A DNA stretch of 23,345 bases, taken from a virus. The notes under the pieces were generated by a model that saw only the letters and a program-made list of their open reading frames with translations, was not told where the DNA came from and ran no database searches. The position numbers and the translations under genes are program-made. The stretch spans positions 1,242-24,586 of the IMG/VR virus record IMGVR_UViG_3300030329_004486, one strand, 5' to 3'. Below are positions 8,755 to 21,285 of this stretch, in pieces (the stretch's first letter is position 1; each line of letters opens with the position of its first letter).

Positions 8755-8931
8755 ATGACGGCAACAATAAATGGAATCCAATATATTGGGGGGCAATATA
8801 GCCCTAATGATTTTATACCTAATCAAGCCTCAACTATTGAGGGAACTCAAACTGTTGTAAATGCAGTTCTTGCAGGTCCTCTTACTTTACCAGGCACAAT
8901 AACAATTACAGGAACGGTAGTAGTAGTATAA
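8755..8931 (+). CDS. 58-residue fibre-operon protein
   Basis: An uninterrupted frame of 58 codons begins with ATG at 8755, eight bases after a TAGGAG site, and ends in TAATG that overlaps the next start. The product starts MTATINGIQYIGGQYSPNDF and ends with a low-complexity strand, LPGTITITGTVVVV. The good ribosome site and tight coupling make it very likely real. It may be a small tail or fibre-associated subunit. I do not recognise a named family. Confidence 0.65.
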   Translation: MTATINGIQYIGGQYSPNDFIPNQASTIEGTQTVVNAVLAGPLTLPGTITITGTVVVV

Positions 8932-10379
8932 TGTCAAAGATAGAAGTAAACACAGTCGACGCACAATGCGGTAGTACAGTAACTATTGGATCTTCAGGTA
9001 AAACTGTAGCAGTTCCAGGTAATGTTGTTAAATCAAATGCTTTACAAGCTTCAGATGCGGGTAATATTATAAGTCAATCAGGTACAACTATTACTTTAGG
9101 TGCTTCAGGTGATACAGTAGCTTTAGCTACTGGAGCTTCTCAAACAGGTTTTGGTTCTGCTGGTCCAGTTGTAGATTGGCAAACAGGTTCAATTAAAACA
9201 GGAGATTTTACAGCAACAAGTGGTGAAGGATATTTTGTTAATACTACTGCTGGTTCAGTAACTTGTACTTTACCTGCTAGTCCAAGTGCAGGAGATTATT
9301 GTGGCTTTATTGATTATGCTAGAACTTGGGATACAAATTATTGTTATCTTGGAAGAAACAGTTCTAAAATTCAAGGAACTACTGAAGACTGGGTTGGTTA
9401 TGAAAATGGTCAACAAGTTACTTTAATTTATGTAGATGGGACTCAAGGATGGCTACCTATTAGTGAAAATTTACAATCTTCAAACAATGTTAATCCATAT
9501 GTGGTTGCAACAGGTGGATGTGTTACAACTACAGGAAATTACAAAATTCATACATTTACAGGACCCGGAACATTTACAGTTACAAAATTAGCTACCTCGG
9601 CCCCCAATAGTAACGCAGATTATGTAGTCGTTGGAGGCGGCGGCGGTGGCGGTGTTGGAGCACCTGGTGGTCCAGCAAATAAGAGAGGTGGCGGTGGCGC
9701 TGGAGGATATAGAGAATCTCCAGGTACAGCTACATGTTATACAGCAAGTCCAAAAGGAGCGGCTCCGGCTGCAGCTATCACTTTAGATGAAGGTGATTAC
9801 CCAGTAACAGTAGGTTCTGGTGGTTCTGGAGGACTTACAGGATCTAGTTGTGGATGTGCTGGTTCTAGTTCAACTTTTTCAACAATAACTTCTGCCGGCG
9901 GTGGCCAATCTAGTCAACCTGGTGGTTCAGGTGGAGGTGGAAATTTTCCTGGCGGTGGCGGTGGAACAGGTAATACTCCTCCAACAAACCCGACTCAAGG
10001 AAATGATGGAGGTCCTAATCACGCTCCTTACAATTCCGGTAAAGCTGGTTCTGGTGGTGGCGGTGCAACAGCTGCTGGAAGTTCAAATTCAAACCACAAC
10101 GGAGGTCCTGGTGGAGCTGGAGCTACTTCAGAAATAACAGGTTCTCCTGTTGCTTATGCTGGTGGTGGCGGCGGTTCTTCTAATAATTATGGTGGTGGAG
10201 GTGGTACTGGAGGTGGAGGCGATGGAAAAGGTGGCACTCCTCAAGGTCCCCCTTATGTAGGAGTTGCTGGTACTGCAAATACTGGTGGTGGTGGAGGCAG
10301 TGGAAGCTATACTAGTGGTGATCCTGAAGGTGGAAATGGTGGCTCAGGTGTAGTAATCATAAGGTATAAATATCAATAA
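8931..10379 (+). CDS. tail fibre-like protein with polyglycine domain, copy 1
   Basis: This encodes 482 residues. The N-terminal part (1-75, KIEVNTVDAQCG then short TITLGASGDTV strands) is like the attachment ends of marine phage fibres. Residues about 80-178 form a beta domain closing with QQVTLIYVDGTQGW. A conserved linker (YKIHTFTGPGTFTV, 204-217) leads to YVVVGGGGGGG and about 245 residues of Gly-rich sequence with Pro, Ser and Asn, ending VVIIRYKYQ. Gly-rich tails of this kind can form packed polyglycine type II helices, as in the S16 fibre-tip adhesin gp38, so receptor binding is likely. It is the first of three tandem paralogs. Confidence 0.82.
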   Translation: MSKIEVNTVDAQCGSTVTIGSSGKTVAVPGNVVKSNALQASDAGNIISQSGTTITLGASGDTVALATGASQTGFGSAGPVVDWQTGSIKTGDFTATSGEGYFVNTTAGSVTCTLPASPSAGDYCGFIDYARTWDTNYCYLGRNSSKIQGTTEDWVGYENGQQVTLIYVDGTQGWLPISENLQSSNNVNPYVVATGGCVTTTGNYKIHTFTGPGTFTVTKLATSAPNSNADYVVVGGGGGGGVGAPGGPANKRGGGGAGGYRESPGTATCYTASPKGAAPAAAITLDEGDYPVTVGSGGSGGLTGSSCGCAGSSSTFSTITSAGGGQSSQPGGSGGGGNFPGGGGGTGNTPPTNPTQGNDGGPNHAPYNSGKAGSGGGGATAAGSSNSNHNGGPGGAGATSEITGSPVAYAGGGGGSSNNYGGGGGTGGGGDGKGGTPQGPPYVGVAGTANTGGGGGSGSYTSGDPEGGNGGSGVVIIRYKYQ

Positions 10380-10381
10380 TT

Positions 10382-11647
10382 ATGAGTGAAATAAAAGTAA
10401 ATAAAATAACTCCAAGAAGTGATTGTGGAACAACCACATTAGGAGATAGTGGAGATACTTTTAATCTTCCTAGTGGAACAACTTTAACTGTTGCTTCAGG
10501 TGCATCAATTACTAACAGTGGAACAGCTACAGGATTTGGACAAACATATTCAGCAGTTTCTTGGGTTACAGATTCAATTAAAACGGCAACTTTTACTGCA
10601 GTAGCAGGTAAAGGTTATTTTTGTAATACAACAGGCGGTGCTTTTGAAATAGATTTACCAGCCGGAACAGCAGGTGATGTTATAGCTATAAATGATTATG
10701 CTAATACTTTTGATGATAATAATTTAACTGTTGATCCAAATGGTACTGAAAAAATTAATGGTGGAAGTGGACAAAGGATTTTATCAACTGAGGGATTAAC
10801 ATTAACTTTAGTTTATGTTGATAGCACCAGAGGTTGGCAGACAGTACAAGATTCTACTGATACTACAGCAGGATCAGATTATATAATTGCAACTGGTGGA
10901 ACAGAAACCACTTGTGGTAATTACAAAATTCATAAATTTACTGGACCAGGAACTTTTACAGTTACAACTAATGCAGTTGCTGCTCCTGATAGAGTAGTAG
11001 ATTATGTAGTGGTAGCTGGAGGAGGTGGTTATGGTGATCATGGAGGAGCAGGTGGAGCTGGTGGAATGAGATTTGCAGCTACACACTATACTCAACCCTC
11101 TCCATTAAAAGCACCTGCTGCTTTACCAGTTTCAGCTCAGGCATATCCAATAACAGTTGGCGGAGGAGGAGCTAAAGGTAGTTCTCCATCACAAGGTGCT
11201 AATGGCAATCCATCAATTTTTTCAACAATAACTTCTGCTGGTGGTGGAGGCGGTGGAGGTAGAACAGGAACACAAACAGGAAAACCAGGTGGTTCTGGCG
11301 GAGGAGGTGGAGATTATGCTCCTAGTAATGCTGGTGGCTCAGGTAATGTACCTCCAACAACTCCAGCACAAGGAAAAGATGGGGGACCTGGTAGTACAGG
11401 AGAACCTGGTGGTGGTGGAGGTGGAATTGCTGCAGCAGGAACTACTTCTGATGGTGGAACTGGATTACAAGATTCTATTACAGGAACTTCTACTTGGTAT
11501 GCTTATGGAGGAAGAGGAGATGGTGGAACAGAAATTCCTACTGCAACTTATGGTCCTGGAGTAAATCAAGGTTTTGGAGCTGGGACTGGCAGTACAAGTA
11601 GTGCTGGCTCAAGTGGAGTAGTAATAATAAGGTATAAATATCAGTAA
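10382..11647 (+). CDS. tail fibre-like protein with polyglycine domain, copy 2
   Basis: This encodes 421 residues with the same layout as copy 1 but a shorter Gly region. The N-terminus reads MSEIKVNKITPRS. The beta domain runs about 58-155, with KGYFCNTTGG and LTLVYVDSTRGW. The conserved linker YKIHKFTGPGTFTV is at 181-194, followed by YVVVAGGGG, and the Gly-rich part ends GVVIIRYKYQ. Block order and junctions match copies 1 and 3, while lengths and Gly-rich contents differ, as expected of host-range proteins that diverge after duplication. The start lies two bases after the previous stop with no clear ribosome site, so translation probably continues from copy 1. Confidence 0.82.
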   Translation: MSEIKVNKITPRSDCGTTTLGDSGDTFNLPSGTTLTVASGASITNSGTATGFGQTYSAVSWVTDSIKTATFTAVAGKGYFCNTTGGAFEIDLPAGTAGDVIAINDYANTFDDNNLTVDPNGTEKINGGSGQRILSTEGLTLTLVYVDSTRGWQTVQDSTDTTAGSDYIIATGGTETTCGNYKIHKFTGPGTFTVTTNAVAAPDRVVDYVVVAGGGGYGDHGGAGGAGGMRFAATHYTQPSPLKAPAALPVSAQAYPITVGGGGAKGSSPSQGANGNPSIFSTITSAGGGGGGGRTGTQTGKPGGSGGGGGDYAPSNAGGSGNVPPTTPAQGKDGGPGSTGEPGGGGGGIAAAGTTSDGGTGLQDSITGTSTWYAYGGRGDGGTEIPTATYGPGVNQGFGAGTGSTSSAGSSGVVIIRYKYQ

Positions 11648-11667
11648 GGATATGGTAAAATAAAATT

Positions 11668-13080
11668 ATGGCATCAACAATAAAAGTAGACAACGTACAA
11701 AATCAACCAGGAAATAATTTAATTAATAGATGTAGTGCAACTACAACTATTGGATCTGGAGCAGGAAATACAATTAATGTAGATGGTGCAACTGTAACTT
11801 TAGGACGTTGCGGTGGAACAGTTTCAATAGCAAGTGGTGCTACTACTTCAGGAATGGGTAGAACCGGTACAGTAGATTGGCAAACAACTCCTAAGACAGC
11901 AACTTTTACAGCTGTTAATGGAGAAGGATATTTTTGTAATACCGCAGGTGGTACTTTTGAAGTTGATTTACCTGCAGGGTCTGCTGGTGCAATAGTTGCA
12001 ATACAAGATTATAATAATACATTTGATACAGCCGGAATAACAATTGATCCTAATGGATCAGAAAAAATTAATGGTGGAGATGCTGGTGGTCCAATTATTG
12101 TAGATACAGAAGGTGAAGGTTTAACTTTAGTATATGTAGATTCAACTGTTGGATGGCGAAGTATTCATAATTCTGCTTTTACAGATGCTGGAAGTAATTG
12201 GATATCAGCAACTGGAGGAACGATAACAACTTGTGGAAATTGTAAAGTTCATACTTTTACAGGTCCTGGAAGTTTGATTGTTGCTTCAGCAGCTAGTCCA
12301 ACTGCAAATAGTGCAGCAGCTTATGTAGTAGTTGCTGGTGGTGGCGGTGGAGGCGGTGTAAGAGCTGGCGGAGGTGGAGCTGGCGGATATAGAGAAGGAA
12401 GTAATCAACCTATAACTCCTTATACAGCAAGCCCTATGGCTGCAGCTTCTCCAAGTGCAATAACTCTTACAGCCCAAACTTATCCAATTACAGTTGGAGC
12501 AGGTGGAACGGCTGCAGGAAATACTACAAACACCAGCGGAGCAAACTCAGTTTTTTCAACAATAACTTCTGCTGGTGGTGGAAGAGGTGGTACTATGGAA
12601 GGTGGACCAACTAATCATGGAGCTGATGGCGGTTCTGGTGGTGGTGGAGGTGGTGGCTGGCCAAGTGGTTCAACAAATGGTGGAACTGGAAACACTCCCC
12701 CTACAAGTCCAGCACAAGGAAAAGATGGTGCTAATGCAACTCTAAAAGCTGGTAGTGGTGGCGGCGGAGGAACTGCATGTGGTTCTCCAAGTTCTCCTGG
12801 AGGTCCAGCAGGTAATGGTGGTAATGGAACAACAACATGTATATCATTTCCAGGTCCAGCAGCTTATGCTGGCGGTGGAGGTGGTGGTACTCAATGCGGA
12901 AGTAAAGGTAATGGTGGTAGTGGAGGTGGAGGAGCTGGTGGTCAAGGAACTAGCGCTCCAGGAAATGTAGCAACCGCTGGAACAGTTAACACTGGTGGTG
13001 GCGGTGGAGGTGGTGGAGATAACGCTACAGGTGGTGCAGGTGGTTCGGGTATAGTTATTATAAGGTATAAATATCAATAA
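11668..13080 (+). CDS. tail fibre-like protein with polyglycine domain, copy 3
   Basis: This encodes 470 residues. The N-terminus MASTIKVDNVQNQPG is the MASTIKVD type seen in many marine phage fibres and differs from copies 1 and 2. The beta domain (about 68-165) and linker (KVHTFTGPGSLIV) match the others closely. The Gly-rich part from about 223 contains many GGP and PGG segments and ends IVIIRYKYQ. An AAGGATATGG segment precedes the start. Together with its two neighbours it probably forms alternative or heteromeric tips of the tail fibre. Several Cys residues (for example in LGRCGG and TTCGNC) are unusual for a fibre and could be chance or stabilising. Confidence 0.82.
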   Translation: MASTIKVDNVQNQPGNNLINRCSATTTIGSGAGNTINVDGATVTLGRCGGTVSIASGATTSGMGRTGTVDWQTTPKTATFTAVNGEGYFCNTAGGTFEVDLPAGSAGAIVAIQDYNNTFDTAGITIDPNGSEKINGGDAGGPIIVDTEGEGLTLVYVDSTVGWRSIHNSAFTDAGSNWISATGGTITTCGNCKVHTFTGPGSLIVASAASPTANSAAAYVVVAGGGGGGGVRAGGGGAGGYREGSNQPITPYTASPMAAASPSAITLTAQTYPITVGAGGTAAGNTTNTSGANSVFSTITSAGGGRGGTMEGGPTNHGADGGSGGGGGGGWPSGSTNGGTGNTPPTSPAQGKDGANATLKAGSGGGGGTACGSPSSPGGPAGNGGNGTTTCISFPGPAAYAGGGGGGTQCGSKGNGGSGGGGAGGQGTSAPGNVATAGTVNTGGGGGGGGDNATGGAGGSGIVIIRYKYQ

Positions 13081-13129: not shown

Positions 13130-13585
13130 ATGGCACATTTCGCAAAATTAGGAGCTAATGGAAAAGTTATTCAAGTATTAACTCTTGATAATAAAGATAT
13201 GCAAGATCATGAAGGCAAGGAAGTAGAAGCTATTGGTCAACAATATTTAGAGTTACATAATAATTGGCCTGCACAGATGTGGATTCAAACATCTTATAAT
13301 ACTAAAGCTACTAAACATAGTTCAGGTGATGACTCAAAAGCGTTCAGAGGAAATTACGCAGGTATTGGTTATGAGTGGGACGAAGATAATCAAATTTTTT
13401 GGCCTAAAAAACCATATGCATCTTGGGTAAAAGATACTACAACTGCAAATTGGAAATCACCAATAGGTGATGCTCCTGCTTTAACCGCAGAGCAACAATC
13501 ACAAAATGATGCTGGTACTCATTTTTGGAAACATAAATGGAATGAAGCTGGTCAATCTTGGGATTTGACAGATTTAATGGCTTAA
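13130..13585 (+). CDS. cyanophage-type tail-associated protein
   Basis: This encodes 151 residues starting MAHFAKLGANGKVIQVLTLD. Trp/Gly/Tyr-rich motifs follow in the order QTSYNTK, FRGNYAGIGYEWDED, FWPKKPYASWVKD, then an acidic and Trp-containing C-terminus (HFWKHKWNEAGQSW). The MAHFAKL start with NYAGIGY and PYASW is characteristic of a family common in marine T4-like cyanophages near tail-fibre genes. It probably belongs to the tail or fibre. AAGGAGA lies nine bases upstream of the start, and a short AT-rich gap separates it from copy 3. Confidence 0.75.
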   Translation: MAHFAKLGANGKVIQVLTLDNKDMQDHEGKEVEAIGQQYLELHNNWPAQMWIQTSYNTKATKHSSGDDSKAFRGNYAGIGYEWDEDNQIFWPKKPYASWVKDTTTANWKSPIGDAPALTAEQQSQNDAGTHFWKHKWNEAGQSWDLTDLMA

Positions 13586-13603: not shown

Positions 13604-14110
13604 ATGCAAAAGAAAGTATTATCTGAAATAGCATTATATTATGGCGATGTAGCAATGCCGAAAGGTTGGGCTATTGACCGAGATAGATTACAACACGATA
13701 TTTTAAAAGACCATCTTCAAAATTTAAAAAATTTTCCCTTTTCTCGAACACTAGATATGTTGATTACATATCTTCGTGAACATATTAATGTTGAATATGG
13801 TTTTAACTTAATACAAAAAGACATCTGGGGAAATGCTTATAAACCACAAGAAATTTCTGTTCCTTTATTAAACATAGATCCTGTTGATTTAAGAAATTCA
13901 CCCGACTTTACTTGTCTTTATGGAGTAAATGTTAAAGATTGTAGTGTTAGAATACATTACGATTCAAACAGAAGAGCGGGGAGAAGCTGGGATATAAAAT
14001 TAGAAAATAATAAGTTTATTATGTTTCCTTCCACTTGTATGTATTATTTAACCAATAATCAAAAAGAGAGTTTAAATTTCGTCCAAACCATTACTCAGGA
14101 CTATATTTAA
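13604..14110 (+). CDS. conserved phage protein heading the oxygenase cassette, possible degenerate oxygenase fold
   Basis: This encodes 168 residues. The order ALYYGDVAMPKGW near the N-terminus, then DPVDLRNSPDF and HYDSNRRAGRSWDIKLENNK near the C-terminus, then FIMFPSTCMYYL and NFVQTIT, resembles a gene found beside tail and oxygenase genes in T4-like cyanophages. A FIMFPS strand is what one expects before the second iron-binding His of 2OG-Fe(II) enzymes, but no His follows it. HYD (118-120) is only about 20 residues earlier, too close to serve as the HxD pair. It is therefore either a catalytically dead relative or an unrelated fold. Its stop overlaps the next start as TAATG. Confidence 0.6.
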   Translation: MQKKVLSEIALYYGDVAMPKGWAIDRDRLQHDILKDHLQNLKNFPFSRTLDMLITYLREHINVEYGFNLIQKDIWGNAYKPQEISVPLLNIDPVDLRNSPDFTCLYGVNVKDCSVRIHYDSNRRAGRSWDIKLENNKFIMFPSTCMYYLTNNQKESLNFVQTITQDYI

Positions 14111-14658
14111 TGAAGCTGTATGAGCACATTTTGGATGGCTCTATTCATATACAAAGAAATTTTTTTGAAAAAAGCATTTACGATAAAATGTGTAAAGAAA
14201 TTACTAAATTAAAATATATTCCTGATCATCAACCAGCGTCTATGTATTTTGGGAATCGTTTTCAAGCTTGGCCTGTTAATGAATATTCTTGGAATAAATA
14301 TAGAAAAATAATAATAGATAAGTTAGAAAAAATACTAGGGTGTCGAATTCAAGTATCTGAAGATGGTATTAGGATGAGAAAAATGATTACCTCAGAAATC
14401 TTAAAATCTAAAACTAATACTAAATATGCTTTAATACATAACGACCATTGTGAGTTTGCTGCGGTAATGCCTTTTTACCAAAGTGTTTCAGGTGGGACAG
14501 CTTTTTTTGAATATACTGTAGATAAATATCCAGATATTGAAATAGGAGCTTATCCTAATCGTCTTATTATCTATCACGGTAAAAGACTACATGCATCGTG
14601 CCAAGATTTTACTTTTAAAAATACTTATAAACTTAACATCTTTTTTAATAAGGCTTAA
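14110..14658 (+). CDS. 2OG-Fe(II) dioxygenase-like protein, HxD type
   Basis: This encodes 182 residues. A double-stranded beta-helix pattern is visible: the iron pair H110-x-D112 in ALIHNDHCEFAAVMPFY, GGTAFFEYTVDKY, NRLIIYHGKRLHAS with the distal His at 161, and a closing strand YKLNIFF with Lys 170 or 174 where the 2-oxoglutarate-binding Arg/Lys is expected. Such enzymes use Fe(II), O2 and 2-oxoglutarate to hydroxylate a target. The substrate is unknown. It is coupled to the gene before by TAATG and followed after one base by the next gene. The fold call is good; the substrate is not inferable. Confidence 0.72.
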   Translation: MKLYEHILDGSIHIQRNFFEKSIYDKMCKEITKLKYIPDHQPASMYFGNRFQAWPVNEYSWNKYRKIIIDKLEKILGCRIQVSEDGIRMRKMITSEILKSKTNTKYALIHNDHCEFAAVMPFYQSVSGGTAFFEYTVDKYPDIEIGAYPNRLIIYHGKRLHASCQDFTFKNTYKLNIFFNKA

Positions 14659-14659
14659 T

Positions 14660-15199
14660 ATGACTTTTATTGAAGAATATAAAGTATCCTCTTCTTTATG
14701 TGATAAACTTATAAAATACCATCAACAAAATAAAGAGTACAAAATTGTTGGAACTATTGCCGATGCCGAAGTAGATCTCGAAGTAAAAGATTCTACTGAT
14801 GTCATTTTTTATAATGATTCTACACATCCTACCATCATTGAATTTTTTAATAGTTTAAAAACGTGTCTCCAAGATTATGTTGACAAATATATGTGGGGAG
14901 GACAGAAAATTCATACTGTTACAGGAAATCTTATTCAACATTATAAAAAAGGAGGTGGTTATAAAAAATTACATTATGAAAGAAGTAATTTAGAAACAGC
15001 AAGAAGACAATTAGTATATATGTTATATTGTAATACTCTAAAAAATGGAGGAACCGAATTTCCCTTGCAAAACACAACACTTCAAGCTACAAAAGGAAAA
15101 TTAGTTATATGGCCTAGTGATTTTACTCACCCTCATAAAGGGGTCATATCTCATACAGAAGAAAAATATATTGCAACAGGCTGGTTTGAAATTATATGA
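14660..15199 (+). CDS. 2OG-Fe(II) dioxygenase-like protein, HxE type
   Basis: This is 179 residues from the ATG at 14660. The frame stays open back to an ATG at 14591 inside the previous gene, but 14660 lies one base after that gene's stop and is preferred. The core reads GNLIQHYKKGGGYKKLHYER (89-108), giving H105-x-E107 as the iron pair in place of the usual HxD. GGTEFPLQNTT, GKLVIWPSDFTHPHKG (distal His 157 or 159) and K169 in EKYIATGWF follow. The arrangement is like prolyl-hydroxylase-related genes of cyanophages, where I recall HxE also being normal. Its stop overlaps the next start as ATGA. Confidence 0.72.
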   Translation: MTFIEEYKVSSSLCDKLIKYHQQNKEYKIVGTIADAEVDLEVKDSTDVIFYNDSTHPTIIEFFNSLKTCLQDYVDKYMWGGQKIHTVTGNLIQHYKKGGGYKKLHYERSNLETARRQLVYMLYCNTLKNGGTEFPLQNTTLQATKGKLVIWPSDFTHPHKGVISHTEEKYIATGWFEII

Positions 15200-15828
15200 A
15201 TTTATCTAATTATTATTGGTTTTTTAAAGGAGTATTAACACCTAAGTTTTGTGATGAAGTTATAAAGTATGCTAATTTACAAAAAGAAGTCTTAGCTCGA
15301 ACAGGTGGTTATGATAAAGAAATCTTAAGTGAAGAAGAAATATTTAATTTACAAAGAAAAAGAAAATCAGATTTAGTTTGGTTAAATGATACTTGGATTT
15401 ATAAGGAATTACATCCATATGTACGTAAAGCAAATGAAATGGCGGGTTGGAATTTTGATTGGGATAGATCTGAATCTTGTCAGTTCACAAAATATAAATT
15501 AAATCAATACTATGATTGGCACTGTGATGCTTGGGACAAACCTTATGATAGACCCGGTCAACCAGACCATGGTAAAATTAGAAAGCTGTCTATGACTTGT
15601 CAGTTAACAGATGGTTCAGAATATCAAGGTGGAGAACTAGAATTTGATTTTAGAAACTATGATCCACATATGCGAGATGAATCGAAGCATAGAGTACAAT
15701 GTAAAGAGATATTACCTAAAGGTTCTATCATTGTATTTCCTTCGTTTGTATGGCATAGAGTTAAACCAGTAAGGAAAGGAACAAGGTATAGTCTAGTTGT
15801 ATGGCATCTAGGCCAACCATTTAAATAG
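15196..15828 (+). CDS. 2OG-Fe(II) dioxygenase, PKHD/prolyl hydroxylase-like
   Basis: This encodes 210 residues and is the clearest enzyme of the cassette. The iron pair is H109-x-D111 in YYDWHCDAWD. Then come KLSMTCQLTDGSEYQGGELEF (in two parts, 130-136 and 137-150), GSIIVFPSFVWHRVKPV with the distal His at 187, and TRYSLVVWHLG with Arg 197 as the likely 2-oxoglutarate ligand. This is the full order of the PKHD-type hydroxylase family. The N-terminal 90 residues are helical with many Trp. It probably hydroxylates a protein side chain; the target is unknown. Start and previous stop overlap by four bases. Confidence 0.85.
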   Translation: MNLSNYYWFFKGVLTPKFCDEVIKYANLQKEVLARTGGYDKEILSEEEIFNLQRKRKSDLVWLNDTWIYKELHPYVRKANEMAGWNFDWDRSESCQFTKYKLNQYYDWHCDAWDKPYDRPGQPDHGKIRKLSMTCQLTDGSEYQGGELEFDFRNYDPHMRDESKHRVQCKEILPKGSIIVFPSFVWHRVKPVRKGTRYSLVVWHLGQPFK

Positions 15829-15829
15829 T

Positions 15830-16462
15830 ATGTATATAAATGATTATTTTAAGACCGCTATTTGGTCAGAAAACAAACCAGAGTTTGTAAAATCTTTAAA
15901 CAAAGCTTCTAATAAATATATTGCTGAAGCTAGAAAAAGAGATAATAAAATTATTAAAAAAAATGGAGATTTTGGAACAAGTCATCATTCTACACCTTTA
16001 ACAGAAGATAATGACTTTAGGGATTTTAGAGATTATGTAGGACAAAAGTCTTGGGAATATTTAGACCATCAAGGTTATGATATGTCATTATATCAAACCA
16101 TGTTTAGTGAGTTATGGGTACAAGAGTTTTCTAAAAAAGGTGGTGGTCATCACTCTGCGCATATACATTGGAACCAACACGTATCAGGTTTTTATTTTTT
16201 AAAGTGTAGCGACAAAACTTCTTTTCCAATATTTCATGAACCTAGAACTGGTGCAAGAACAACAAAGTTAAAAATGAAACCAGACTTAAAAGGTGTATGG
16301 CCTGGTCACGAACTATTTCATATACGACCTAAACCAGGGACATTAATTATATTTCCAGGTTATTTAGAACACGAGTATGCAGTAGATTTTGGTATTGAAC
16401 CATTTAGATTTATACATTGGAATATACAAGCAGTGCCAAAAGGAATGGCAAAACGATCTTAA
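15830..16462 (+). CDS. putative 2OG-Fe(II) oxygenase, HxH type
   Basis: This encodes 210 residues. The pattern LWVQEFSKKGGG, then AHIHWNQHVSGFYFLKC with H111 and H113, FHEPRTGA, GTLIIFPGYLEHEYAV with distal His 181, and EPFRFIHWNIQA with Arg 193 matches the group of putative 2OG-Fe(II) oxygenases in which HxH replaces HxD and SGFYF follows it. The residue after the first His is Ile, not the common Asn. Expected cofactors are Fe(II) and 2-oxoglutarate, but an HxH first pair is less certain as an iron site. The start comes one base after the previous stop. Confidence 0.72.
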   Translation: MYINDYFKTAIWSENKPEFVKSLNKASNKYIAEARKRDNKIIKKNGDFGTSHHSTPLTEDNDFRDFRDYVGQKSWEYLDHQGYDMSLYQTMFSELWVQEFSKKGGGHHSAHIHWNQHVSGFYFLKCSDKTSFPIFHEPRTGARTTKLKMKPDLKGVWPGHELFHIRPKPGTLIIFPGYLEHEYAVDFGIEPFRFIHWNIQAVPKGMAKRS

Positions 16463-17101
16463 ATGAAATATATTAATTTTCCCAATGTAGGTATTCTCGA
16501 AGAAAAATTATCTCCCGAATGTATTAAAAGATTAAAAAAATATATCAAAGCTAGTAGAAAAAAAGCTAATGATGAGTTAGCAGGAAACATTACACGATCT
16601 AATCACTTGATAGATAAAGATAATTGGTTTTTTAATAATGTTTTAAGTACTTTCATAGAAAATTACATAAAAATTTTTAGTAAAAATGCGATCCCTTCTG
16701 TTTTAACTACAGACTGTAGATATAGTTTAAATAAATTCTGGGTTAACTTTCAAAAAAAACATGAGTTTAATCCCCCACATGATCACGGCGGAGTTTTTTC
16801 TTTTGTGGTATGGATTACAATACCAGCTTCTTATAAAAAAGAAAAAGAATTACCTTTTGTAAAAGAAAGCAATAATCCTTGTCCTAATACTTTTAGTTTT
16901 GTCTATTCAAATATTTTAGGAAGAACATCTTATTTTAGATATCTTTTGGAACCAGAATATGAAGGAACCATGTTATTCTTTCCTTCTGGTTTAGACCATG
17001 AAGTTCATCCTTATTATACAAGTGATAAAGAAAGAATAAGTATTTCAGGTAATATATCTTTTAATGTAGATAGCCCAGAAAGGACTAAAGATGTCATTTA
17101 A
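16463..17101 (+). CDS. putative 2OG-Fe(II) oxygenase, HxH type, second member
   Basis: This encodes 212 residues. KFWVNFQKKHEFNPPHDHGG (91-110) gives H106-x-H108 with an intervening Asp. FSFVVWITIP, GTMLFFPSGLDHEVHP (distal His 179 or 182) and DKERISISGNISF with Arg 191 follow. The order is the same as in the preceding gene, but the two are only weakly alike, so they are old paralogs or independent acquisitions and not a recent duplication. A mostly charged insertion (KKEKELPFVKES) lies between the strands. The gene begins right at the previous stop and overlaps the next by 11 bases. Activity is uncertain; membership in the fold is likely. Confidence 0.7.
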   Translation: MKYINFPNVGILEEKLSPECIKRLKKYIKASRKKANDELAGNITRSNHLIDKDNWFFNNVLSTFIENYIKIFSKNAIPSVLTTDCRYSLNKFWVNFQKKHEFNPPHDHGGVFSFVVWITIPASYKKEKELPFVKESNNPCPNTFSFVYSNILGRTSYFRYLLEPEYEGTMLFFPSGLDHEVHPYYTSDKERISISGNISFNVDSPERTKDVI

Positions 17102-17723
17102 AAAAAATAAATATACAGTTATTCGTCAAGCTATATCAAGAGATTTAGCAAGTTTTCTAGCTAATTATTTTAATATGAAAAAACAAGTTTGTGATACTTG
17201 TTTAAAAGAAAGATATTTGTCCCCTTACGAAACTCTATTGGGTATATATGAAGCTTCAGCAGACCAAGGAGGCCAGGTCCCCCATACATATGCTCATTAT
17301 TCAGATATAGCTATAGAGACTTTAATGTTAAAATGCCAACCAGTAATGGAAAAAGCTACAGCATTAAAGTTATATCCTGCATATACCTATGCAAGAATTT
17401 ATAAAAAAGGTGATGAACTTAAAAGACACAAAGATAGATTTAGTTGTGAGATATCTACTACGATGAATCTAGGGGGTGATGAATGGCCCATCTATCTAGA
17501 GCCATCTGGTAAAGAAGGTATGAAGGGTATTAAAGTAGATTTAAAACCAGGAGATATGTTAGTTTATAAAGGAAGTGACTTAGAACATTGGCGAAATAAA
17601 TTCAAAGGTAAAGAATGCATACAAGCTTTTCTTCATTATAATAATCGTAAGACACCAGGAGCGAAAGAAAATATGTTCGATAAAAGACTACATTTAGGTC
17701 TTCCTTCTTGGTTTAAACGATGA
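17091..17723 (+). CDS. 2OG-Fe(II) dioxygenase-like protein, prolyl 4-hydroxylase-like
   Basis: This encodes 210 residues. PAYTYARIYKKGDELKRHKD (96-115) carries H113-x-D115, preceded by the typical Y-R/K-KG-L element. Then follow FSCEISTTMNLGGDEWPIYL, the GIKVDLKPGDMLVYKG strand, DLEHWR with distal His 166, and GKECIQAFLHY, in which Lys 172 or 174 would hold 2-oxoglutarate. This is the arrangement of small phage and bacterial prolyl 4-hydroxylase-like enzymes. The Cys-rich N-terminal stretch (QVCDTCLKERYLS) is unusual. It closes the cassette; a promoter-like box and a hairpin follow directly. Confidence 0.8.
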   Translation: MSFKKNKYTVIRQAISRDLASFLANYFNMKKQVCDTCLKERYLSPYETLLGIYEASADQGGQVPHTYAHYSDIAIETLMLKCQPVMEKATALKLYPAYTYARIYKKGDELKRHKDRFSCEISTTMNLGGDEWPIYLEPSGKEGMKGIKVDLKPGDMLVYKGSDLEHWRNKFKGKECIQAFLHYNNRKTPGAKENMFDKRLHLGLPSWFKR

Positions 17724-18990: not shown

Positions 18991-21285
18991 ATGGCTCTTT
19001 TTGAAATGAAATTTCAACCGGGTGTCAATAAACAAGACACCGGCGTCGGCGCTACCGACCGATGGGTTGATTCCGATAATGTAAGATGGAGATATGGACT
19101 TGCTGAAAAAGTAGGTGGATGGTCTTCTTTACTTACAGACACTATTCATGGTGTAGCTAGAAAACAACTAGCTTTTACAGATTTAGAAGGAAATAGATAC
19201 GTTGGAATAGGTACTGATAAATTTTTATTAGTTTATTTTGAAGGGGCACTTTATGATGTTACTCCTTGGAGAACTAATTCTTCAGGAGCTCAAATTACTT
19301 TTGGAGCTTCTACTATAACTACTAACAGTACGTCTCCCGGTACATCAATTACTATTACTACAGGATCAGATCACGGTTTAGAAGTAGGAGATATTGTTGC
19401 TTTAGAATCTGTTACAATGCCTACGGCTTCAGCTTTAAACAAAAACAATATTGAATATACCAGTACTGATAGACAAGTTTGTCAAGTTATAACAGCACCA
19501 AGTAATACTACATTTACTATTACATCTCCGACAGCAGAAACAAATGGGGGTGGTTCTGATTTAACTTCAGGAAGTGCCTGTATAGTATCTCCTTATCAAA
19601 GAATAGGACCTGCAGAACAATCTTATGGTTATGGATTTGGAATTGGAGACTATGGTGGAACAGTTACTGGAGTAGTAGATGATACATTAGACGGAGCATT
19701 AAACGCTGACACTGCTGGTACTGGTGGATCTGGTACAGCGGTTACAGTAGACTCTACTACAGGTTTTCCTTCGACAGGAACTATTGCAGTTGGAACAGTT
19801 CCCACTGCTGAGTTAATTACTTATACTGCAACCAATGCTACAAATTTTCAAAACATTACTAGAGGAGCTTTAGGAACAGCAACTCCTGGAACTTCAAATG
19901 GACAAGCTCATTCTGATGGAACCGCTCTTCAAAATGCAACTAAATGGACTAACTGGGGTGATGCAGTTAATGCAACAACAGTTACTCTAGAACCAGGACT
20001 TTGGTCTTTAAGTAATTGGGGACAAGTTTTAGTTGGAACAGTTGCTAATGGAAAAACCTATACATGGAATTCAGGAGTAAGTGGAGATACAAAATTTACT
20101 ACACGTGCTTCTATGAACACAACAAGTTATGTAACTGCTATTAGTAGTGGGGACGGAAATCCAACAGCTACTAGATTTACTTTAATATCTCCAACTACAA
20201 GACACTTAGTTCACTTTGGAACTGAAACAACTTTAGGAGATTCAAGCACTCAAGACGATATGTTTTTGCGTTTCTCAGATGTCAATGCTCTTAATACTTT
20301 TGCACCAGAGGCAGATAACAGTGCAGGAGATCAAAGACTCCAAGATGGAACAAAATTAATGGGAGCCATTGTTGCTAAAGAAAACATTCTAGTTTGGACC
20401 GACAATGCTCTTTATACTATGAAATATGTAGGTTCTCCTTATACTTTTGAATTCGAACAGGTAGGAACTAACTGTGGATTAGTAGGTCAAAATGCATGTT
20501 GTGAAATAGATGGTGTTGCTTATTGGTTAAGTAATAATGGTTTCTTTTCTTTTGATGGTACCGTTAACTCTTTACCTTGTGTAGTGGAAGATTATGTATT
20601 TGATGACTTTGCAACTACCAAAGGTCAACAAGTATGCGCAGGAATTAATAATCTATTTACAGAAGTAGTATGGTATTACCCAGGAACAGACTCTTCTTAT
20701 AATGACAAATATGTAGTATTTAATTATGGAGAATCAGGCAGACAACCTGGAGGTATTTGGTACACAGGAGTAAATACTTATTCTATTAGAACTAGCTTTA
20801 TTGATGCCACGGTTTATCCAAAACCTTATGCTACTCAATTCAATAGCTCATCTACAGGTACTTTTCCAGACGTAGTAGGAGCTACAGGATTAGGCCAAAG
20901 TGTTTATTTTGAACATGAAGTAGGAACCGATCAATTAAATCCTGATGGTACAACAACTACTCTTACTTCTTATGCAACTTCATTTGATTTTCCTATTAAC
21001 ACGCAACAAGGAACTGGAGAATATTTCCTAGCTATGAGAAGATTTTTACCAGACTTTAAAACTTTAACTGGTACAGCTAAAGTAACTGTAGGAGTTAAAA
21101 ATTATCCTTCTCAATCAATGACTAATAGTACCTATAGTCCCTTTAGTGTGACCTCAAGTTCTACTAAATTTGATACAAGAGCAAGAGGAAGATATGCTAA
21201 TATTAAAATTGAAAATGAAAGCTCTGGTGAAAACTGGAGATATGGAACGTTTCAAGTAGATGTCCAAGCGGATGGGAGAAGATAA
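18991..21285 (+). CDS. tail nozzle / DNA stabilisation protein (P22 gp10-like)
   Basis: This encodes 764 residues, the largest complete gene here. It opens with FQPGVNKQDTGVGATDRWVD, then NVRWRYGLAEKVGGW and a propeller-like strand set (QLAFTDLEGNRYVGIGTDKF), the pattern of P22 gp10-type stabilisation proteins that form the tail nozzle. A beta-rich insertion occupies about 100-330 and contains ELITYTATN and ITRGALGTATP, similar to the module at 5978. The core resumes at LWSLSNWGQVLVGT and includes KENILVWTDNALYTMKY and the C-terminal strands. It is followed by TAATG. The family call is good; the insertion is probably host-contacting, which is inference. Confidence 0.8.
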   Translation: MALFEMKFQPGVNKQDTGVGATDRWVDSDNVRWRYGLAEKVGGWSSLLTDTIHGVARKQLAFTDLEGNRYVGIGTDKFLLVYFEGALYDVTPWRTNSSGAQITFGASTITTNSTSPGTSITITTGSDHGLEVGDIVALESVTMPTASALNKNNIEYTSTDRQVCQVITAPSNTTFTITSPTAETNGGGSDLTSGSACIVSPYQRIGPAEQSYGYGFGIGDYGGTVTGVVDDTLDGALNADTAGTGGSGTAVTVDSTTGFPSTGTIAVGTVPTAELITYTATNATNFQNITRGALGTATPGTSNGQAHSDGTALQNATKWTNWGDAVNATTVTLEPGLWSLSNWGQVLVGTVANGKTYTWNSGVSGDTKFTTRASMNTTSYVTAISSGDGNPTATRFTLISPTTRHLVHFGTETTLGDSSTQDDMFLRFSDVNALNTFAPEADNSAGDQRLQDGTKLMGAIVAKENILVWTDNALYTMKYVGSPYTFEFEQVGTNCGLVGQNACCEIDGVAYWLSNNGFFSFDGTVNSLPCVVEDYVFDDFATTKGQQVCAGINNLFTEVVWYYPGTDSSYNDKYVVFNYGESGRQPGGIWYTGVNTYSIRTSFIDATVYPKPYATQFNSSSTGTFPDVVGATGLGQSVYFEHEVGTDQLNPDGTTTTLTSYATSFDFPINTQQGTGEYFLAMRRFLPDFKTLTGTAKVTVGVKNYPSQSMTNSTYSPFSVTSSSTKFDTRARGRYANIKIENESSGENWRYGTFQVDVQADGRR

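Follow-up and report, generated by a model that had tools for sequence, protein, structure and literature searches.

An oxygenase island with a conserved four-gene core and variable slots in the structural operon of an HTVC023P-type virus

Why would a phage carry six oxygenase-like genes in a row among its tail genes, and what would they oxidise? We addressed this question in a 23,345-nucleotide stretch (23.3 kb of the 24.6 kb IMG/VR virus record IMGVR_UViG_3300030329_004486), hereafter the window. Positions 13604-17723 hold seven intact, contiguous open reading frames (ORFs) arranged head to tail, and the last six (14110-17723) encode 2-oxoglutarate (2OG)-Fe(II) oxygenase-like proteins. Four of the seven form a fixed core in related phages, and the other three are gap, or slot, genes that come and go. 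We tentatively read the locus as a late tailoring island whose most likely substrate is a tail or adhesin protein of the phage itself. The seven genes are as follows.

A1, 13604..14110, plus strand: core gene, predicted catalytically dead double-stranded beta helix protein
B2, 14110..14658, plus strand: slot gene, DUF6445-like putative 2OG-Fe(II) oxygenase, H110-x-D112...H161
C3, 14660..15199, plus strand: slot gene, 2OG-FeII_Oxy_3 with HxE site H105-x-E107 (PF13640, 8.7e-10; phrog_61, 6.8e-33)
D4, 15196..15828, plus strand: core gene, PF13640 oxygenase (1.1e-14), H109-x-D111...H187...R197
E5, 15830..16462, plus strand: core gene, PF13759 oxygenase (2.3e-12), H111-x-H113...H181, R193
F6, 16463..17101, plus strand: slot gene, PF13759 oxygenase (3.2e-11), H106-x-H108...
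G7, 17091..17723, plus strand: core gene at the 3′ end of the core, prolyl-hydroxylase-like oxygenase (phrog_2954, 5.4e-51, labelled "ferrochelatase")

The tight co-directional packing among tail genes given in a preliminary description of this DNA was confirmed. A1 and B2 share 1 base (TAATG), C3 and D4 overlap by 4 and F6 and G7 by 11, E5 and F6 abut, and B2/C3 and D4/E5 lie 1 base apart. The start of C3 is most likely the ATG at 14660, not the mechanical start at 14591. The same description counted six oxygenase-like genes, and this number stood. C3, D4, E5 and F6 scored above the curated Pfam cut-offs, which also assign them the double-stranded beta helix fold, whereas G7 was placed by its AlphaFold2 model, a Foldseek search and an invariant site. 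B2 is the weakest member of the six. Its match to DUF6445 (E 0.0014) is below the Pfam cut-off, and with only two relatives in IMG/VR its putative motif is read from three sequences, although an alignment with one DUF6445 slot gene agrees at the motif patches. Judged by sequence, all six proteins from B2 to G7 have the expected iron site, with a distal His following HxD (B2, D4, G7), HxE (C3) or the HxH accepted in PF13759 (E5, F6). The D4 site residues are invariant in 27/27 sequences and the E5 site is near-invariant among 27. Searches of PDB sequences with the island proteins returned nothing or weak matches, such as the PKHD-type PiuC for D4 (E 0.0028) and the structure 3bvc for E5 (E 0.012). 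Identity between any two of the seven proteins is 16-32%, which rules out a recent tandem duplication. The cassette is therefore a set of genes that either are long-diverged paralogues or were imported separately, and the earlier view of several subfamilies rather than one duplication was sound.

The gene in front, A1, had been described as a seventh related-looking gene. It does share the fold, but it lacks a conserved set of iron ligands. The AlphaFold2 model (predicted local distance difference test, pLDDT, 81; predicted template modelling score, pTM, 0.80) matched 3bvc best among PDB entries (E 1.1e-6, TMq 0.70), and its viral structure matches include named 2OG oxygenases. The alignments behind the structure models were built only from the IMG/VR loci and the window. 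No conserved iron-ligand set was found in the A1 alignment of 40 sequences: the distal His is replaced by Tyr in 39/40, and the first His position is occupied by H, Y, F or N. Model and alignment together indicate that A1 belongs to the 2OG-Fe(II) oxygenase fold and is not an active member of it. A decaying pseudogene was ruled out, since A1 is intact in more than 100 loci and its ratio of non-synonymous to synonymous substitution rates (dN/dS) is 0.09-0.30, indicating purifying selection. It is the most distinctive part of the island; as for its role, we can only guess at a partner or substrate holder. We also observed by eye that HTVC008M gp067 (L007:15629-16051; L numbers denote the sequences compared), which adjoins the G7 homologue of that phage, resembles another degenerate oxygenase-fold protein with Tyr at the distal His position.

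At the other end of the island, the label attached to G7 proved misleading. G7 matched nothing in Pfam at E ≤ 1, ferrochelatase families included. Its AlphaFold2 model is a double-stranded beta helix (pLDDT 90.9) whose best solved matches are the Pseudomonas putida prolyl-4-hydroxylases 4iw3/4j25 (E 2.9e-9 to 1.6e-8), and the P. putida enzyme among these matches was solved with EF-Tu. H113, D115 and H166 are invariant in 52/52 sequences. The ferrochelatase label for G7 and phrog_2954 was rejected in favour of this high-confidence oxygenase fold with an HxD...H site; no earlier correction of it was seen in the open-licence papers that we found. G7 relatives also occurred in bacterial metagenome-assembled genome contigs named Maricaulis, Flavobacteriaceae and Dehalococcoidia (L246, L248, L250-L256), which are probably misbinned phage contigs.

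The reannotation bears on the proposal that such islands tune host 2OG together with nitrogen or iron/haem metabolism. For cyanophage oxygenases, a link with 2OG drawdown and with DNA repair has been drawn (PMC3037559), and ferrochelatase partner genes have been put forward in pelagiphages (PMC9599517). The ferrochelatase part is contradicted by the fold and site of G7. Moreover, a single enzyme would be enough for 2OG drawdown, and many divergent subfamilies and accompanying halogenases would be left unexplained. We regard this as the least probable of the explanations considered. With phrog_2954 read as an oxygenase, the haem interpretation falls, and the question that remains is what the islands oxidise.

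The organisation of the island emerged from its relatives. The IMG/VR queries were G7, its HTVC008M homologue and A1, and the loci analysed are the best of hundreds of relatives. Among 117 loci spanning A1 to G7, 58 consist of exactly A1, D4, E5 and G7, and 59 carry one to six extra gap genes; one core gene is missing or replaced in a few. The extra genes are distributed over all three gaps (55 in E5-G7, 24 in A1-D4 and 22 in D4-E5), and the largest islands (L193, L194) reach ten genes in all. In the window, the A1-D4 gap holds B2 and C3, and F6 lies between E5 and G7. One close relative (L009) has B2 and C3 and no F6, and another (L008) has F6. The preliminary description had looked to relatives for a loss of members, and such loss is real for B2, C3 and F6 but not for the conserved A1, D4, E5 and G7. 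Site and family together identify 58 of the 64 distinct gap genes as oxygenases; 35 match PF13640 and 21 PF13759 (E ≤ 0.01), and the complete ones retain the ligands. A loose H.[DEH]...H...[RK] pattern was present in 58/58 slot ORFs, against 19% of the other same-size ORFs in the loci, many of which are likewise oxygenases.

Slot content turns over rapidly, as would be expected if the slots were a neutral or selfish gene-gathering spot whose extra genes have no joint function. Occupancy differs in 2/13 pairs of loci at 95-99% core protein identity and in 86/205 pairs (42%) at 90-95%, the pairs not being independent. Base composition gave no sign of recent import, the guanine-plus-cytosine content of slot and core genes being alike. 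A neutral spot would, however, hardly draw 58 of 64 genes from one superfamily with their ligands kept, and B2 is under purifying selection (dN/dS 0.13-0.18). We consider it very improbable, only slightly less so than the metabolic proposal.

Many slot genes carry another doubtful name. The "DNA endonuclease V" label (phrog_274, phrog_2297) was rejected for them, as oxygenase families and sites are present instead; phrog_274 is matched by 43/64 slot genes. Many genes in the runs of other phages are recorded as ferrochelatase, minor coat protein, DNA endonuclease or DNA endonuclease V, and several of them match oxygenase or DUF6445 profiles. The HxD...H site is present in S-RSM4 138 and 139 and in Syn9 gp51 and gp53, and the "minor coat protein" label of the DUF6445-like Syn9 gp52 was likewise rejected. 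Modification or repair of nucleic acid, in the manner of AlkB or TET, has been put forward for cyanophage oxygenases lying close to repair genes, in Syn9 and others, according to the passages quoted in PMC3037559 and PMC9146016, and AlkB is among the fold matches of G7. Nevertheless, no match to an AlkB or Tet/JBP Pfam family was obtained for any island member, the supposed endonuclease V neighbours themselves resemble oxygenases, and the island sits in a structural operon. This substrate is improbable in our view, if less so than a neutral spot.

Tryptophan halogenases and carbamoyltransferases, two of each, make up four of the six non-oxygenases among the 64 gap genes; the remaining two are a sulfotransferase and a ParB-like gene. 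The L027 halogenase and the L018 methyltransferase-like gene lie in incomplete loci and are additional to the 64.

Tryptophan halogenase genes (PF04820), L027:113-1360, L084:5952-7436 and L127:9117-10598: within or at the edge of the island in pelagiphage-like contigs
NodU-type carbamoyltransferase genes, L086:4695-6353 and L087:3807-5474: in the A1-D4 slot
Sulfotransferase gene, L058:5577-6332: between D4 and E5
Methyltransferase-like gene, L018:612-1247: between E5 and G7
ParB-like ORF of 90 amino acids (aa), L048:556-828: in the A1-D4 slot, where L044, L047 and L056 have an oxygenase

Such company recalls a natural-product tailoring cluster, and a host-surface or small-molecule substrate (a glycan, lipid or metabolite) modified during infection is the strongest competitor, though we think it rather unlikely. 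The slots that hold the oxygenases also take halogenase, methyltransferase-like, sulfotransferase and carbamoyltransferase genes, G7 has a resemblance to small-molecule oxygenases such as SnoN and OkaE, and HTVC023P and HTVC027P have glycosyltransferase genes downstream. On the other hand, no scaffold-building enzyme was seen in the island, and its oxygenases are of the short PF13640/PF13759 types, in contrast to the longer enzymes of natural-product type. In podophages and some myophages the island is linked to tail genes, which also points away from such a substrate.

That link is apparent in the surroundings of the island. Capsid and tail genes lie upstream of the cassette, and directly in front of Z0 and the island, at 8931-13080, we noted an adjacent pair of related tail-fibre-like genes, each matching phrog_2295, and after them a glycine-rich protein of 470 aa. 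The gene next to A1 is the following.

Z0, 13130..13585, plus strand: conserved tail-operon protein (phrog_7759, 5e-31), candidate tail accessory protein

A Z0-like gene stands ahead of the island in the window, HTVC023P, S-RSM4 and S-SM1, and Z0 relatives sit among the tail genes of several marine phages whether or not the island is present. Downstream, at 18991-21285, is a large structural protein that shares 63% identity with one of 023Pt_psg01 and about 40% with those of HTVC027P and HTVC023P; on this basis we assign the window to an HTVC023P-type pelagiphage. A further oxygenase family, of 224 aa, was observed 3′ of the cassette (L003:15011-15685, L018:4517-5191), and its HTVC023P copy (gp71) immediately precedes the large structural gene.

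Tailoring of a shared late substrate is favoured because of the tail-gene linkage across phage types, the fold of G7, which comes closest to that of protein hydroxylases, and the occurrence of halogenases, carbamoyltransferases and a sulfotransferase in the slots. Tail-fibre-like genes precede the island, and the order with a Z0-like gene first, oxygenases next and a G7-like gene last recurs in S-RSM4 and S-SM1. The virion of S-SCSM1 also fits, in that the text reporting its proteome of 45 proteins names no oxygenase despite 24 oxygenase genes in the genome (PMC9602691), as would be expected of enzymes acting during infection. Several points weigh against a tail or adhesin substrate. The S-SCSM1 argument is one from silence, drawn from the text of a single proteome report that leaves 13 detected proteins without names. 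In Syn9, small unknown genes are annotated after the run, and the S-RIM44 run has neck genes, not fibres, as neighbours. The fold matches of G7 cover small-molecule (SnoN, OkaE) and nucleic-acid (AlkB) oxygenases as well. A position in the late operon could reflect expression timing alone, and since the sequence gives the enzymes and their arrangement, the substrate is something we infer.

If the target is indeed a tail or adhesin protein of the phage, which we rate as the likeliest reading though at somewhat less than even odds, the island genes would most likely be expressed together with the tail genes. The enzymes would rely on O2, Fe(II) and 2-oxoglutarate while hydroxylating selected residues of tail or receptor-binding proteins or oxidising them in some other way. 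A1 may serve as a non-catalytic partner or substrate holder. The three core gaps would take up further oxygenase genes and, in relatives, halogenases and other enzymes, and gap-gene turnover would alter the chemistry of the tail or receptor-binding surface. A virion or host-surface modification module, as first suggested, is thus borne out as a plausible reading, with the virion target still conjectural. The broader proposition is that marine phages of at least two morphotypes practise modular post-translational tailoring of their own tail or adhesin proteins, with a dead-oxygenase scaffold core and interchangeable hydroxylases, halogenases, carbamoyltransferases and sulfotransferases diversifying the receptor-binding surface; we find it doubtful, a shade more so than a host-surface or small-molecule substrate. 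The four-gene core and the existence of cultured phages make the target directly testable.

Oxygenase clusters in these phages have already been published, and the window is a further example of a badly annotated island. Wittmers et al. (2022; PMC9599517) described eight non-orthologous 2OG-Fe(II) genes and neighbouring ferrochelatase-labelled genes in HTVC023P-type pelagiphages. Phage type and genes are alike in the window, where oxygenases likewise adjoin a phrog_2954 gene in the structural region. In their account the oxygenases are near, not adjacent, and the partner is a haem enzyme, whereas in the window the genes abut and the partner is itself an oxygenase. The dead-fold core gene and the slot structure are additions of the present analysis and, together with the oxygenase reannotation, are what is new; reannotation and core-plus-slot picture raise the value of the finding. 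In HTVC027P the corresponding large structural gene is immediately preceded by three oxygenase-like genes (gp72-gp74, L005:10292-11953), which lie on the minus strand of a plus-strand structural operon and show that replacement or inversion of the island can occur. In four podophage whole genomes every PF13640/PF13759 gene lies within the island area and none outside, which we count in favour of the tail or adhesin reading.

Six oxygenases in a row had been considered unusual, which does not hold: besides the 117 loci, the pelagimyophage HTVC008M has five (gp068-gp072) and S-RSM4 about nine, nearly unbroken. The window island is longer than the commonest four-gene form, is not the longest, and is ordinary for its phage type. 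The last gene of the HTVC008M run is a homologue of G7 (44% identity), and a Z0-like gene lies two genes further along. It differs in belonging to a myophage, in a tryptophan halogenase about 6 kb away, and in that no A1 homologue was detected by sequence search, as was also the case in the T4-like cyanophages.

These cyanophages (Syn9, S-SM1, S-RSM4), of another phage family, share runs of PF13640, PF13759, DUF6445 and phrog_2954 genes with the window. In S-RSM4 a tail fibre gene, two small genes and the Z0-like gene precede an oxygenase-motif run closing with a G7-like gene, and S-SM1 has a similar order from the Z0-like gene onward. Unlike the window island, both runs include an iron-sulphur protein gene; we observed this cysteine-rich 4Fe-4S-like protein (S-RSM4_134, S-SM1_058; L240:11957-12658, L233:5666-6367) within cyanophage oxygenase runs. 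A similar run in Syn9 follows a halogenase and has one JmjC_2 member, again a point for a protein substrate, and halogenases are also near the S-RIM44 run. A 2024 seasonal study found phrog_61 and phrog_2954, the best matches of D4 and G7, to be enriched (PMC11561400). Finally, the cyanomyophage hyperplastic region g15-g18 (cited in PMC2984593) likewise holds variable accessory genes within a structural module; those are varied metabolic genes, whereas the present island consists almost entirely of oxygenases.

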